Shown: positions 5,250-11,942 of the stretch, piece by piece | Layout of the letters: each line of letters opens with the position of its first letter | Position numbering within the stretch: the first letter of the stretch is position 1 | DNA from: Bacteroidales bacterium | GTDB lineage: Bacteria > Bacteroidota > Bacteroidia > Bacteroidales > UBA10428 | Direction: 5' to 3' | Assembly (NCBI GenBank): GCA_016929525.1 | Contig: JAFGIP010000009.1 | Location: forward strand, 31,886-95,885 | DNA length: 64,000 nucleotides | Program-made: the position numbers and the translations under genes | Notes under the pieces: model-generated | The model's database searches: none | Seen by the model: only the letters and a program-made list of their open reading frames with translations | What the model was told of the DNA's origin: nothing

Positions 5250-5384
5250 AATTTATTTTCCATTCAGAATTTACTTTTTAAAATGTTCTATTTGCCTTAT
5301 ATTTAAGTATAGAATAACCAAATTATTATATTGCCAATATTGCATATTCAGTTATTTTTATTAGCTTTAGATAAAACTATAGAA

Positions 5385-5780
5385 ATGGATGAAAACAGAG
5401 ACTACAAAATTTTAGTTGTTGATGATTCTACAACTAATGTTGTATTACTCGAAGCGATACTGGATGAGAAGGGATATCAGATTGAAACGGCTTTAAATGC
5501 AAAAGAAGCTTACGCTATAATGGAAAGAGAATCACCCGACCTTATTCTGTTAGATTTGTTAATGCCTAAAATTAGTGGATTTGATTTTCTGGAAGAAATA
5601 AGAAAAAATGAAAAAACAAAAAAAACCCCGGTAATAGTAGTTTCAGCACTTACAGATGAGGAAAATGTCGACAGGATAATGAACATGGGCGCAATCGATT
5701 TTGTGAAGAAACCCATTGATTTGCAATACCTGGTAGAAAGAGTTGAACTTGTCCTGCATAAAGCATACGATGCGCAATAA
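5385..5780 (+). CDS. Single-domain response regulator
   Basis: A 131-aa receiver domain starts at ATG 5385 (MDENRDYKILVVDD). The 18 extra N-terminal residues in the ORF track are not receiver sequence. The acidic pair (VVDDSTTN), phospho-Asp (LILLDLLMPKISG), Ser (VSAL) and Lys (VKKPID) are all present. No output domain follows. It is divergent from the Crp/Fnr gene across operator site 2 and stands before a second receiver gene about 110 bases downstream. The partner kinase is not obvious; the kinase-like proteins later in the island are candidates. Confidence 0.9.
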   Translation: MDENRDYKILVVDDSTTNVVLLEAILDEKGYQIETALNAKEAYAIMERESPDLILLDLLMPKISGFDFLEEIRKNEKTKKTPVIVVSALTDEENVDRIMNMGAIDFVKKPIDLQYLVERVELVLHKAYDAQ

Positions 5781-5889: not shown

Positions 5890-6291
5890 ATGAAAAGATT
5901 ATTATTGGTTGAGGATAATCGGCTGGAAAGAAAAATGCTTTTACATCTGCTTAAGGAAAATTTATATTCTTTTGCCAATATAGATGTAACCAATGATGGA
6001 ATAAGCGCTATTGAATATTTATCCCGTTCACATTACGATCTCATCATAACGGATCTGATCATGCCAAAAGTTGATGGCATCGAGTTAATCAGAAATGTCA
6101 AGAAAAAATATCCCGCTAGTAAAATAATTGCCATTTCAGGCAGTAAACCTTATTATTTACTCATGGCAAAAAAGTTAGGTATCGAAGCTGTATTTACCAA
6201 ACCTATTGATCAAGATCGATTTCTAAAAAAAATCTTCGAACTGTTCAATATTAATTCAAAAAGTAAAATTATAAGCGTTAAACAAATATAA
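5890..6291 (+). CDS. Single-domain response regulator
   Basis: This 133-aa receiver carries LLLVEDNR at the acidic site, the phospho-Asp in IITDLIMPKVDG, Ser in AISGS and Lys in FTKPID. The LMAKKLG helix before the Lys is the usual position for partner contact. The last ~15 residues (INSKSKIISVKQI) form a short tail rather than a domain. It is the third stand-alone receiver within 2.2 kb and precedes the 561-aa coiled-coil gene by about 140 bases, with operator site 3 in between. Confidence 0.9.
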   Translation: MKRLLLVEDNRLERKMLLHLLKENLYSFANIDVTNDGISAIEYLSRSHYDLIITDLIMPKVDGIELIRNVKKKYPASKIIAISGSKPYYLLMAKKLGIEAVFTKPIDQDRFLKKIFELFNINSKSKIISVKQI

Positions 6292-6434: not shown

Positions 6435-8120
6435 GTGCCAGTTAATCTTGTTAAATCGGGAACTGTTCTTAAAAAGCCTGTAATGGTGTTTACAGACATT
6501 AATAGTCGCATTAATTCTTTAATAGATTGCTCAGCAAAAGATTTCAACACTCTAAATGATAACTTTCAGAAGTATCATAAAAAAATAAACAATCTGATAA
6601 TCCAGCTGAATTCATCCTGCCATAGCTTTATAGATATTCCTGAAAACGTAATGACTGATTTTGAAGCACAGTTAAATGAAATCAGTGATATCTTAAAAAA
6701 GAGCTATGAATACATAACTGGAATTGATTATTCTTTGCTTAAACTTCAAAAGAGAATTGAACACATTTATTTGAAAGTAAACAATTTGAAACAAAATGTT
6801 AGCACGCTTAAACTTCTAACTACAAATATTCAGTTTGAACCTACCTATCGTAAACTATACCAGGAAATTATTATTAATCTAAATGATTTATCATCACGCA
6901 TTCATGATCTTGAAACAAAATTTCAAAAAATAGATATGCGTATAAAACCTTGCTCTGAAATAACTGAACAAATTAAGTTCCATCAAATCCCTCTTATTTC
7001 GCAAGTATTAGATCGATTAAAAACTTTGGTGCAGGGATACAAACATAGTCAAACAGAAATTAAAAACTATGAATCGGCACATGAACAGCTCACAACAAGG
7101 CACACTTCCAGCAGTTCAGCAATAATACCCAATTTAAAATTTCAGGATATAATCAAACAAAATATTGAACATGTGAAGGTTGCTCACGAGTCTATACAGA
7201 AACAGCTTTCCAATTTTTCTGAGAATGGCGCCATTAAAGGAATATCAGAAGAGATTAATGTTGAAATGTTGTTTAAAATCAGAGACATTGGAGCCTTACA
7301 GGCAATTCAACTGGTACACGCCAATAGTGAATATCAAAAGACTGTAGAAAATATTACCGAAAAATTTGGGGAGCTCGATGATACTTTACAGAAGACCAAA
7401 AACTTATTGTATTCACTATCGCCATATAATAAATCAGATAACAAATTTAGTACGGATAGTCTTAACAGGAGTTCAGTAAAATTCAACCTTGAGATTAATA
7501 CCTTCCTCGATCTGAACTCGAATCTAAATTTAAATTACACCGATTTGTCAAGAAAAGTCCGGGGTCTGATTTATTCAAAACAAAAAAATGATCATTTTAT
7601 TAAGAGTATCAGTTTACTTTTTGAAAGAATTAAACCACTTATAAACAACCAGAAAATAAATAAGAACAGTTCCTACATTGATCAAATAATTTTTTCGAAT
7701 AAACCCAAGTTAAAAGTTATAGATAAGTCTGACGTCGAAACCTATTTCTCAATGCATAAAAGGCTTGAAAATATTGCCGGAAATTTCATAGAAACAGTGA
7801 CGCAAAAGATTTCTAAATCGACATCTGAATTTATCTTAGAACCAAGACCCTGGAACGAATCTGATTTCCATAACAGTGAATTTATACTTGATCGGTTAAA
7901 ATACTATAAAGTTTTTGATAAAGAAATCGAAGAGATAATTGAAAATTTAAACCAACTTTTAAAACAAATTGATATTGGAAATCTGGAATCTGAAATTAGT
8001 ACGTTGAGTCTAGAGATACTTAAGAAGCTCTATACGATGGAGAGCGAAAGAATAATTCATGAATTATATACAGGTAATAAGTATCACAATCATAACAATA
8101 ACAATGTCGTACTATTTTAA
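6435..8120 (+). CDS. Coiled-coil signalling protein with CheZ-like DxxxQ motif
   Basis: This 561-aa soluble protein is largely helical, with no membrane segment or signal peptide. Around residues 234-247 it reads LKFQDIIKQNIEHV. This resembles the catalytic helix of CheZ (FQDLTGQ), with Asp238 and Gln242 spaced like the Asp-Gln pair that dephosphorylates CheY-P. A second conserved-looking block, ALQAIQLVHANSEYQKTV, lies at about 287-304. Similar FQD...Q...EH segments also occur in chemoreceptor-like proteins, but the MCP hairpin tip is absent here. The start is GTG 6435 or ATG 6483. A CheY gene follows 34 bases downstream, fitting a role as its phosphatase or scaffold. Function is inferred. 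Confidence 0.7.
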   Translation: MPVNLVKSGTVLKKPVMVFTDINSRINSLIDCSAKDFNTLNDNFQKYHKKINNLIIQLNSSCHSFIDIPENVMTDFEAQLNEISDILKKSYEYITGIDYSLLKLQKRIEHIYLKVNNLKQNVSTLKLLTTNIQFEPTYRKLYQEIIINLNDLSSRIHDLETKFQKIDMRIKPCSEITEQIKFHQIPLISQVLDRLKTLVQGYKHSQTEIKNYESAHEQLTTRHTSSSSAIIPNLKFQDIIKQNIEHVKVAHESIQKQLSNFSENGAIKGISEEINVEMLFKIRDIGALQAIQLVHANSEYQKTVENITEKFGELDDTLQKTKNLLYSLSPYNKSDNKFSTDSLNRSSVKFNLEINTFLDLNSNLNLNYTDLSRKVRGLIYSKQKNDHFIKSISLLFERIKPLINNQKINKNSSYIDQIIFSNKPKLKVIDKSDVETYFSMHKRLENIAGNFIETVTQKISKSTSEFILEPRPWNESDFHNSEFILDRLKYYKVFDKEIEEIIENLNQLLKQIDIGNLESEISTLSLEILKKLYTMESERIIHELYTGNKYHNHNNNNVVLF

Positions 8121-8154: not shown

Positions 8155-8520
8155 ATGGGGAAAAAAATTCTATTCGTCGATGATTCAGAAAGCATTCGCG
8201 AAATAGTAAACTTCACTCTCGAAAATGAAGGTTACGATGTCTTACTCAGCAATAACGGGGAAAATGCGCTGAAACATCTTAATGGTCAGGATATTAATTT
8301 AATTATTACAGACCTGCACATGCCTGAAATGAATGGCATTGAATTAATAATAGAGATTCGGAAGATGGAAGATTATCAGCATACGCCAATACTTTTTCTA
8401 ACCACCGAATCCCAGACAGAAAAAAAGATGGAAGCTAAAAATGCCGGTGCAACCGGATGGATAGTTAAGCCGTTTGTACCTGCTAAGCTATTAGCTGCCA
8501 TTAATAAAGTGATAAGATAA
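8155..8520 (+). CDS. cheY: CheY-type chemotaxis response regulator
   Basis: A 121-aa receiver starts at ATG 8155 (MGKKILFVDD). The ORF-track start adds 32 residues overlapping the previous gene. All receiver residues are present: the VDDS acidic pair, Asp in IITDLHMPEMNG, Thr in FLTTES and Lys in IVKPF. The TTES and GATGWIVKPF segments are typical of chemotaxis CheY proteins rather than receivers of hybrid kinases. The gene sits between the CheZ-like coiled-coil gene and cheW. What it acts on (a flagellar switch, gliding or another output) cannot be seen in this window. Confidence 0.9.
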   Translation: MGKKILFVDDSESIREIVNFTLENEGYDVLLSNNGENALKHLNGQDINLIITDLHMPEMNGIELIIEIRKMEDYQHTPILFLTTESQTEKKMEAKNAGATGWIVKPFVPAKLLAAINKVIR

Positions 8521-8539: not shown

Positions 8540-9058
8540 ATGAGCACAAAAACAAAAAACCAGATCAACTCATTTCTGTCATTCAGGATAGGTAGTGAAG
8601 TGTTTGCTGCGAATGTACGGAACGTGTTGAATATTCTTGAGATGACCAAAATAACGAAAGTACCCAAAGCATCTTCTTATATGAAAGGTGTAATAAACTT
8701 ACGTGGTAATGTTCTTCCCATAATTGACAGTCGTCTAAAATTTGGTCTCGAAGAAACAGAATATACAACAAACACATGTATAATTGTTTTAGAACTGCAC
8801 ATAGGTAATGATCCGATAACAGTTGGCGCAATTGTAGATTCTGTAAATGAAGTCCTTGAAATAGATGATGACAACATACTTCCTCCTCCAGGCATTGGAA
8901 CCAATTTTCGTTCAGACTTTCTGAAAGGTATGGCTAAGAAGGACGAAGGTTTTATAATGTTACTGGATGTTGAAAAAGTATTTGCAACTGATGAAGTGGT
9001 TGACATACAGAATATCACTGAAGAAATAAGCAAACAGACAACAGCAGAACAGTCGTAA
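8540..9058 (+). CDS. cheW: Chemotaxis coupling protein CheW
   Basis: The 172-aa protein is a full CheW domain. It has FLSFRIGSEVFAANVRNVLNI at the N-terminus, the highly conserved YMKGVINLRGNVLPIIDSR segment, and the second-subdomain motifs VDSVNEVLEI and FLKGMAKKDEGFIMLLDVEK. A short acidic tail follows. CheW links chemoreceptors to CheA kinase. Neither a CheA nor a classical chemoreceptor is encoded in this window, so its partners must lie elsewhere or be unconventional. It follows cheY by 19 bases and precedes cheR by 38, consistent with an operon. Confidence 0.95.
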   Translation: MSTKTKNQINSFLSFRIGSEVFAANVRNVLNILEMTKITKVPKASSYMKGVINLRGNVLPIIDSRLKFGLEETEYTTNTCIIVLELHIGNDPITVGAIVDSVNEVLEIDDDNILPPPGIGTNFRSDFLKGMAKKDEGFIMLLDVEKVFATDEVVDIQNITEEISKQTTAEQS

Positions 9059-9096: not shown

Positions 9097-9954
9097 ATGA
9101 ATAATCAGGGAAATCCAATTTCATATTTTCAGACTAAATTAAGTTCAAAAGATTTCGAAAAACTTAGCAGATTTATCATGTCGGAGTATGGTATCAAAAT
9201 GCCTCCCGAAAATAAAATTATGCTCCAGAGTCGTCTTCAAAAAAGACTTAAAGCTTTAAACATAAGCACATTTAATGAGTATGTCGACTATGTGTTTTCT
9301 CCTTTAGGGCAGAGTGAGGAAGTTATCCACATGATGGATGTTGTAAGTACTAATAAAACAGACTTTTTCCGCGAACCGGTTCATTTTGATTTCTTACTAA
9401 CAGATGCTCTCCCCGAGATAATCAATATTAAAAATATCAGAAATTTAAAAGTATGGTCAGCGGGTTGTTCATCTGGTGAAGAACCTTATACATTGGCAAT
9501 TGTATTGTCTGAGTTTAAAGAACATAATCCTGGTATTGATTTTTCGATAGATGCAACTGATATATCTACCCGTATGTTAACAGTTGCAGCTAACGCTGTA
9601 TATCAGGAAGCAAAAACTGCTGATTTACCTATGACAATAAAACATAAGTATTTTCTACGCAGCAAAAATCGCGATGAGAAAAAAGTAAGAGTAAAAAGTG
9701 AATTAAGATCGAAGGTGAAATTTTACAGGAAAAACTTATTATACGTTCCCTATTGCAATAATCCTGAATTTGATATTATCTTCTGCAGAAATGTACTTAT
9801 TTACTTCGACAGAAATAACCAGTACAGTATTCTTCAAAAACTCTGCATGCATATAAAATCCGGCGGATATCTTTTTCTGGGACATTCTGAGTCTATCACC
9901 GGTTTTGAATTGCCATTACAACATATAAAACCAACCATCTTTCAAAAACTTTAA
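9097..9954 (+). CDS. cheR: Chemotaxis protein methyltransferase CheR
   Basis: The 285-aa enzyme transfers methyl groups from S-adenosylmethionine to chemoreceptor glutamates. It has the N-terminal helical CheR domain (residues ~15-75) and a substrate segment, MMDVVSTNKTDFFREPVHF. The SAM-binding motif VWSAGCSSGEEPYTLAI and the C-terminal FDIIFCRNVLIYFD and GGYLFLGHSES motifs are also present. All key segments are intact and length is normal. This contrasts with its antagonist cheB and with cheD downstream, which are both damaged. Its methylation target is not visible in the window. Confidence 0.95.
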   Translation: MNNQGNPISYFQTKLSSKDFEKLSRFIMSEYGIKMPPENKIMLQSRLQKRLKALNISTFNEYVDYVFSPLGQSEEVIHMMDVVSTNKTDFFREPVHFDFLLTDALPEIINIKNIRNLKVWSAGCSSGEEPYTLAIVLSEFKEHNPGIDFSIDATDISTRMLTVAANAVYQEAKTADLPMTIKHKYFLRSKNRDEKKVRVKSELRSKVKFYRKNLLYVPYCNNPEFDIIFCRNVLIYFDRNNQYSILQKLCMHIKSGGYLFLGHSESITGFELPLQHIKPTIFQKL

Positions 9955-9963
9955 AAAAGTGAT

Positions 9964-10860
9964 ATGGAATTAAATAATATATCAGATAAGGAAATAATCC
10001 TGGAGTTGAAAAACCGGCTGCAGGAAAAAGCAATTTGTGAACAACAGGTTAAGGATCTGAATATTTCATTAAAAAAACTTAACCGTAAGCTAAAAGAATC
10101 AGAATCTATGAAAAGTCATTTCATTTCAAATATTAGAAATGAGATAATAAATCCCTTTACATCGATTCTGGCGATCGCTGAAAACATTCTTGACGTAGAA
10201 AAAGAAAACTGGAAAAAGGTTATACATATGGTTTCGTTAATTCATACGGAAGTATTTAATCTTGATTTCCAGCTGAGAAATATTTTTGCCGCTGCGGAAC
10301 TTGAAGCTGGAGAAAACGAGCCTGACATAACACTAGTAAATATTGATAAAACAATCCAACACGTTATCGATACCTTTAAATACGAAGCCAGAAGAAAACA
10401 CCTTAAAATTGAATATGTTTCAGCTAATAAAAATTCAAATACGAAAATGTATTTCAAGTCAGATGCTGAGAAAATCCAGATAATAATCAGCAACCTTATA
10501 AGCAACGCTATTAAATTCAGTTATAATGAAGGAATCATTCTGATTAAGGTTACAAAGCAAGAAAATAACTTAAGATTAACAGTAAAAGACGAAGGTCAGG
10601 GAATTTCAAAAACCAACGAGCAGATTATTTTTGACCGTTTTAAAAGAATAGATACCGGTATTAATTCGCTGAACAGAGGACACGGACTGGGATTATCTAT
10701 CATTAAAGCAATGATAGACTCACTGGATGGTAAAATTGAATTTTCAAGTCGGCTTGGTAAAGGCGCCACTTTCACAATCCAGCTGTATGAATCAGAAAAG
10801 GAAACATCAGGAATATCAAACGATGCCGACGAATTGTTCTTCAGAGAAGAAAAGTTTTAA
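9964..10860 (+). CDS. Histidine-kinase-like protein with Asn replacing the H-box His
   Basis: The 298-aa cytoplasmic protein has an N-terminal coiled coil (1-50), a HisKA-like dimerisation segment and a HATPase domain (~150-275). The H-box reads FISNIRNEIINPF, with Asn59 (codon AAT at 10138) where the phospho-accepting His should be. His52, exactly one heptad earlier, is the only nearby alternative. The ATP site looks intact: N-box ISNLISNAIKFS, G1 DEGQGIS, the RF..I F-box and G2 GHGLGLSI. It is therefore likely unable to autophosphorylate in the normal way but able to bind ATP, and may act in trans on a partner or as a phosphatase. It lies 9 bases after cheR. Confidence 0.9.
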   Translation: MELNNISDKEIILELKNRLQEKAICEQQVKDLNISLKKLNRKLKESESMKSHFISNIRNEIINPFTSILAIAENILDVEKENWKKVIHMVSLIHTEVFNLDFQLRNIFAAAELEAGENEPDITLVNIDKTIQHVIDTFKYEARRKHLKIEYVSANKNSNTKMYFKSDAEKIQIIISNLISNAIKFSYNEGIILIKVTKQENNLRLTVKDEGQGISKTNEQIIFDRFKRIDTGINSLNRGHGLGLSIIKAMIDSLDGKIEFSSRLGKGATFTIQLYESEKETSGISNDADELFFREEKF

Positions 10861-10874
10861 TAAACAACATTAAC

Positions 10875-11942
<1,068 letters not shown>

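Follow-up and report, generated by a model that had tools for sequence, protein, structure and literature searches.

What dephosphorylates CheY-P in Bacteroidales that possess complete che operons and 6 to 24 receptors but neither a flagellar switch nor CheZ? The question is raised by a gene lying next to cheY in a stretch of Bacteroidales DNA, the whole of which, 64,000 nucleotides long, is hereafter called the window. The gene, named below the DxxxQ gene after a motif in its product, occupies positions 6435–8120 of the forward strand, begins with GTG, and forms an uninterrupted frame of 561 codons; the opposite strand is dense in stops and holds no competing frame. We consider it moderately probable that the product and the rest of its unnamed family, helical proteins derived from chemoreceptors, are CheY-P phosphatases working like CheZ.

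Genomic context and known CheY-P phosphatases

As the preliminary description stated, the gene directly precedes cheY: the CheY frame (MGKKILFVDD...) starts at 8155, 34 nt past the stop of the 561-aa protein, the listed cheY ORF start at 8059 being too early. CheY (8155–8520), the presumed substrate, is an intact receiver, 89% identical to the corresponding neighbor in the related genome G005. It is followed on the same strand by CheW (8540–9058; PF01584), CheR (9097–9954; PF01739 and PF03705), a histidine kinase of the che operon (9964–10860), a cheD pseudogene with several in-frame stops (10863–11340; relatives have an intact CheD, PF03975, in the same position), and a cheB (11346–11942) that lacks about 170 codons, deleted in frame and including the GASTGG catalytic region. 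Two single-domain response regulators are encoded upstream, also on the forward strand: rr1 (5331–5780), which adjoins the gene in many Bacteroidales loci, and rr2 (5890–6291), which adjoins it in the window's family.

The gene order in relatives is rr1, DxxxQ gene, STAS, CheY, CheA, CheW, (MCP), CheR, histidine kinase, CheD, CheB, and a PAS/GAF protein, with the DxxxQ gene heading the che run (STAS-CheY-CheA-CheW-CheR-HK-CheD-CheB) in most loci; in rumen Bacteroidales it is placed apart from the che operon. In the window's genus, STAS and CheA are gone from between the DxxxQ gene and CheW. The sole CheA of the window's genome (G000; ~820 aa, L063 6074–9348, contig C64) is encoded elsewhere, together with a small STAS-like protein and a receiver, an arrangement with similar counterparts in G004, G005, and G008.

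CheZ and FliM/N/Y were found in none of 60 related genomes, CheX in 2, and CheC in 1, and 16 of the 18 genomes with the DxxxQ gene have no CheZ, FliM/N/Y, CheX, or CheC. The models PF04509, PF13690, and PF01052 (CheC/CheX/FliY) do not match the 561-aa protein and are absent from its genome. The DxxxQ gene is not universally needed, because two MCP-rich genomes, G007 (10 MCPs) and G051 (21 MCPs), do without both it and any known phosphatase. Our literature search found no paper on a CheY-P phosphatase of Bacteroidota.

Conservation and exposure of the DxxxQ helix

The CheZ-like active helix pointed out in the preliminary description is present at residues 234–247 (LKFQDIIKQNIEHV; 7134–7175, forward strand), with Asp238 (codon 7146–7148) and Gln242 (codon 7158–7160) at the CheZ spacing. 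The bare pattern is not significant, since it occurs 3 times in the 561-aa protein, at residues 75, 238, and 315. Homologs were collected by whole-protein BLAST in the 60 related genomes with no use of the motif as a filter, which recovered the gene in 18 of them, mostly at 22%–35% identity, and conservation was counted in the 16 homologs whose alignments run the length of the protein. Q242 is kept in 16/16 and D238 in 15/16, while the DxxxQ at 75 and that at 315 are not conserved; thus, it is conservation, not the pattern itself, that lifts D238 and Q242 above chance. Both residues also persist farther out in the family, in three full-length members from distant Bacteroidota and 5/5 alphaproteobacterial members examined. 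A scan of GTDB contigs yielded 224 relatives, the best 80 of which are all from Bacteroidota; since DIx[RK]Q[KQN][IM][ED]H served as the seed of the scan, no D/Q statistics were drawn from these 80 loci.

Loss of Asp or Gln in homologs had been named in the preliminary description as an outcome that would speak against the proposal, and the sole exception is a substitution of D238 by E in G018, a genome without CheA and MCPs, whose copy also deviates at more conserved columns than any other. Burial of the motif was the other such outcome. Here, a helical-wheel calculation places D238 158 degrees and Q242 162 degrees from the hydrophobic face, so that both, at about 160 degrees, are exposed. 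Residue −2 to the Asp is F or Y throughout Bacteroidales members and residue −1 is H, Q, or S, while residue −5 is mostly N in Bacteroidales members and A in two proteins introduced below, L048 and L050 (AxxFQ in CheZ).

Predicted architecture and conserved blocks

No Pfam or NCBIfam model, both collections having been searched, names the 561-aa protein; Pfam ApoLp-III and NCBIfam CD1247 were rejected as its identity, their scores being far under the cut-off. The protein falls into a family, bearing no name so far, of helical proteins of roughly 550–620 residues found in Bacteroidota chemotaxis clusters and in some Alphaproteobacteria. AlphaFold predicts it to be all-helical (mean pLDDT 74.9), as is L121, an intact member from Perlabentimonas gracilis (80.6), in which D252 and Q256 are the counterparts of D238 and Q242. 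In the predicted fold of the 561-aa protein, a hairpin turn at 132–135 leads into a long helix reaching to 234, followed by the motif helix (236–264), a second hairpin set, and a disordered tail. Foldseek searches of the PDB with the two models returned coiled-coil noise only, and a PDB profile search for relatives was discarded, as it gave composition-driven coiled-coil matches only, with CheZ absent.

Further positions fixed among the 16 homologs are D36-F37, Q120, H246, Q289, N297, Y300, Y490-Y491, F494, Y533-T534, and H542. Conserved blocks, all on the forward strand, comprise NNLKQNVSTLKLLTT (residues 117–131, 6783–6827) at the tip of the first hairpin, next to the predicted turn; IRDIGALQAIQLVHANSEYQKTVENI (residues 282–307, 7278–7355), with Q289, N297, and Y300 invariant; and YYKVFDKEIEEII...LYTMESERIIH (residues 490–542, 7902–8060), which is common to alphaproteobacterial members (YTMxxERxxH). 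The protein ends in YHNHNNNNVVLF (residues 550–561, 8082–8117), where the acids of the family consensus, an acidic stretch plus [VIL]E[LFY]F, are lost. The family tail, of low AlphaFold confidence and hence presumably flexible, has three or more acids and the [VIL]E[LFY]F ending in 80/80 loci (the best 80 of the 224 GTDB relatives), and by its sequence resembles the CheY-binding end of CheZ.

Decay of the chemotaxis pathway in the window's genome

The window's genome (97.7% complete) has no MCP (PF00015), most near-complete members of its genus having 8–13, and chemotaxis in this organism appears to be lost. Its 561-aa protein has substitutions at five positions that are nearly invariant in the family, among them Q235K and K243N. 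The chemotaxis pathway of this genome is decaying, as several separate signs agree, an assembly artifact being possible, and the window copy is therefore probably under relaxed selection.

Three of the 18 gene-bearing genomes have no MCP, namely, G000, G018, and G022, the latter two also being without CheA. In G018 and G022 (L027 and L031), the che operon is down to rr1, rr2, the DxxxQ gene, cheR, and sensor proteins. The tails in all three are damaged: that of G000 has no acids, that of G018 reads EENTQPA, and G022 has a stop inside YTMSSE. The tail is kept in all other gene-bearing genomes, including G002 despite an internal stop just upstream. Damage in 3/3 MCP-less genomes versus 0/15 others gives 1/816 in a one-sided exact test, a value that treats the cases as more independent than they are; G018 and G022 come from a single genus, so that the link does not represent three independent events. 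The pattern fits a role of D238 and the tail in the CheA-CheY pathway, and general decay of any pathway protein would fit as well.

Distant relatives and an apparent chemoreceptor link

Three profile-found, full-length homologs from other Bacteroidota lineages (L046–L048) exceed the PF00015 cut-off, and in these proteins two receptor-tip-like stretches flank the motif helix (IQFHDITRQQIEHV). The block at 117–131 has its aligned counterpart in the MCP-tip-like element near the N terminus of such distant homologs (LKMLGISTKIESARLG / MTILTLNAKIEAAR), which also share YTMxSERxIH and a VELF/IELF end with the family. In Bacteroidales members the MCP tips are eroded and the Pfam score is nil; accordingly, a Pfam search found no PF00015 match in the 561-aa protein. 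Because distant full-length members carry recognizable MCP tips, the family looks receptor-derived with a CheZ-type active helix. Long helical hairpins are common to the family and to the MCP signaling domain of cytoplasmic chemoreceptors; unlike MCPs, the family has a CheZ-type helix between two hairpins, and a ligand-binding or HAMP domain was not found. In another Bacteroidota lineage, L049 and L051 encode a 450–460-aa protein with an MCP signaling domain, FQDVLRQKI, and an IELF end, which we report as a shorter, putative receptor-phosphatase-like fusion. Weak profile matches in other genomes (~20 bits, positions 310–515) were taken as coiled-coil noise and left uncounted.

The restriction to Bacteroidota implied by the preliminary description does not hold, as alphaproteobacterial members exist in che loci, among them WP_161915527.1 (Methylosinus), WP_304983968.1 (Agrobacterium leguminum), and WP_241949778.1 (Shinella). 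These proteins, unnamed or misnamed in public records, show ~20% identity, keep D and Q in a D..RQR.EH helix (LQIGDITRQRVEHV, IQIGDSVRQRAEHA, and LQVGDFTCQRLAHI), and have the YTMxxERxxH block, an acidic LF tail, and che neighbors. The Shinella copy (L158 4719–6443) adjoins STAS-CheY-CheA-CheW-MCP; its label, type VII secretion target, seems to stem from a weak helical match (PF10824).

An alternative is that the family, descended from a cytoplasmic chemoreceptor, has no catalytic role and organizes CheA/CheW/CheR arrays as a scaffold or adaptor, in which the DxxxQ helix would be structural or partner-binding. The PF00015 scores of L046–L048, the many conserved blocks outside the DxxxQ helix, and the retention of the gene next to cheR in G018 and G022 after the loss of cheA, cheW, and cheB are all in keeping with this alternative. 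Nevertheless, the MCP tips have been eroded in Bacteroidales, while D and Q stay fixed across phyla at the CheZ spacing, and we regard a scaffold as unlikely.

Relation to CheT and CheZ

The nearest concept to the family, compared by description, is CheT, which is much smaller than 561 aa. CheT of Sinorhizobium meliloti and Agrobacterium is a DXXXQ protein of the che operon that bears little homology to CheZ and serves as the phosphatase of one of two CheYs, and CheT systems also have the STAS protein CheS (PMC12654446). By that description, the likeness lies in a che-operon protein with a DXXXQ helix, little CheZ homology, and a STAS gene in the operon. In the che operons of Bacteroidales, CheY-CheA come after a STAS-domain protein (L024, L033, and most of L068–L147), like CheS of Alphaproteobacteria, and a shared origin of this operon type is possible.

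The discrimination of two CheYs by CheT (PMC12654446) raises the alternative that the family is a DxxxQ phosphatase for another response regulator, i.e., rr1/rr2 or a second CheY. Such a preference would agree with the position of rr1 (rr2 in the window's family) before the gene in many loci and with the persistence of rr1 and rr2 in G018 and G022, where the operon has lost cheY. However, the gene heads a co-oriented STAS-CheY-CheA run in most loci, many of which have no rr1, and we hold this reading to be less likely still than a scaffold role.

In CheZ itself, a four-helix bundle is followed by a linker and a CheY-binding helix at the C terminus, and a conserved AxxFQ immediately precedes the Asp of DxxxQ (PMC7750401). 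Points in common between the family and CheZ (PF04344) are the exposed helix bearing DxxxQ, F/Y at residue −2 to the Asp, a similar acidic-hydrophobic C-terminal tail, and the che operon. In the profile comparison with CheZ and MCP families that had been suggested, L046–L048 match PF00015. PF04344 has no match in the 561-aa protein or its genome, and E. coli CheZ was neither detected by direct comparison nor reached by the family profile, which does match L050, a non-proteobacterial CheZ of 224 aa above the PF04344 cut-off (E 2.3e-9), and two proteins like it, of 211–215 aa. The L050 match spans ~37 residues and vanishes when the active helix is masked, and hhalign of the family against the L050 group gives 60%–65% over 29–47 columns. 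Since the similarity is confined to the helix, the active helix, not the whole protein, is CheZ-like. When D and Q of L050 are changed to A, the match persists, albeit weaker (27 bits); the helix as a whole is therefore similar to that of L050. Common ancestry of the CheZ and family active helices is likely, not proven. Convergence on DxxxQ by a helix of unrelated function, which could account for a similarity of only ~37 residues in a pattern that is common in its bare form, is very unlikely given that the match outlasts the D/Q change and that the tail and operon position also agree.

The architecture is a different matter. CheZ, a protein of ~200 aa, dimerizes through its hairpins into a four-helix bundle, whereas the 561-aa protein, against about 214 aa for CheZ, is modeled with several long hairpins, and the family has two receptor-like ones; moreover, AlphaFold shows a single long helix (136–234) before the motif, without the hairpin turn located 40 residues before the Asp in CheZ. 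Because model and architecture tests fail, the family is not a CheZ member. The view that the protein is larger than CheZ and otherwise unlike it thus stands insofar as the similarity is limited to the active helix, and needs amending in that the remainder looks derived from MCP signaling hairpins.

Discussion

The phosphatase reading is supported by the D/Q conservation, the exposed face, the che-operon position, the tail, and the absence of CheZ and FliM/N/Y. Counted against it are the undetected E. coli CheZ, the helix-only similarity, the missing CheZ hairpin turn, the Foldseek noise, and the genomes G007 and G051 without the gene. Of the earlier suggestion of an undescribed CheY-P phosphatase or scaffold in Bacteroidota, we retain a candidate uncharacterized CheY-P phosphatase, with a conserved, exposed helix in a che operon that has no other known phosphatase, while its taxonomic limit is abandoned.

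In CheZ, the Gln orients a water molecule and the acidic residue bridges a CheY lysine (PMC3035606). By analogy, two receptor-like hairpins would flank a CheZ-type active helix, on which Gln242 would position the water that attacks the CheY phospho-aspartate and Asp238 would form a salt bridge with the conserved CheY lysine. The acidic, flexible tail with its [VIL]E[LFY]F end would hold on to CheY much like the CheZ C-terminal peptide; CheY binding, catalysis, and tethering by the family are all inferred. A bolder version, in which a double-hairpin, MCP-like phosphatase with a CheZ-type helix removes CheY-P in or beside the receptor array and replaces CheZ/CheC/CheX in a non-flagellated group, is conceivable, and we advance it tentatively.

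The family offers an annotation handle for proteins now called hypothetical, chemotaxis protein, or type VII secretion target. It would link MCP-like coiled coils to CheZ chemistry, and represents a candidate off-switch for the CheY signal in Bacteroidales without CheZ.
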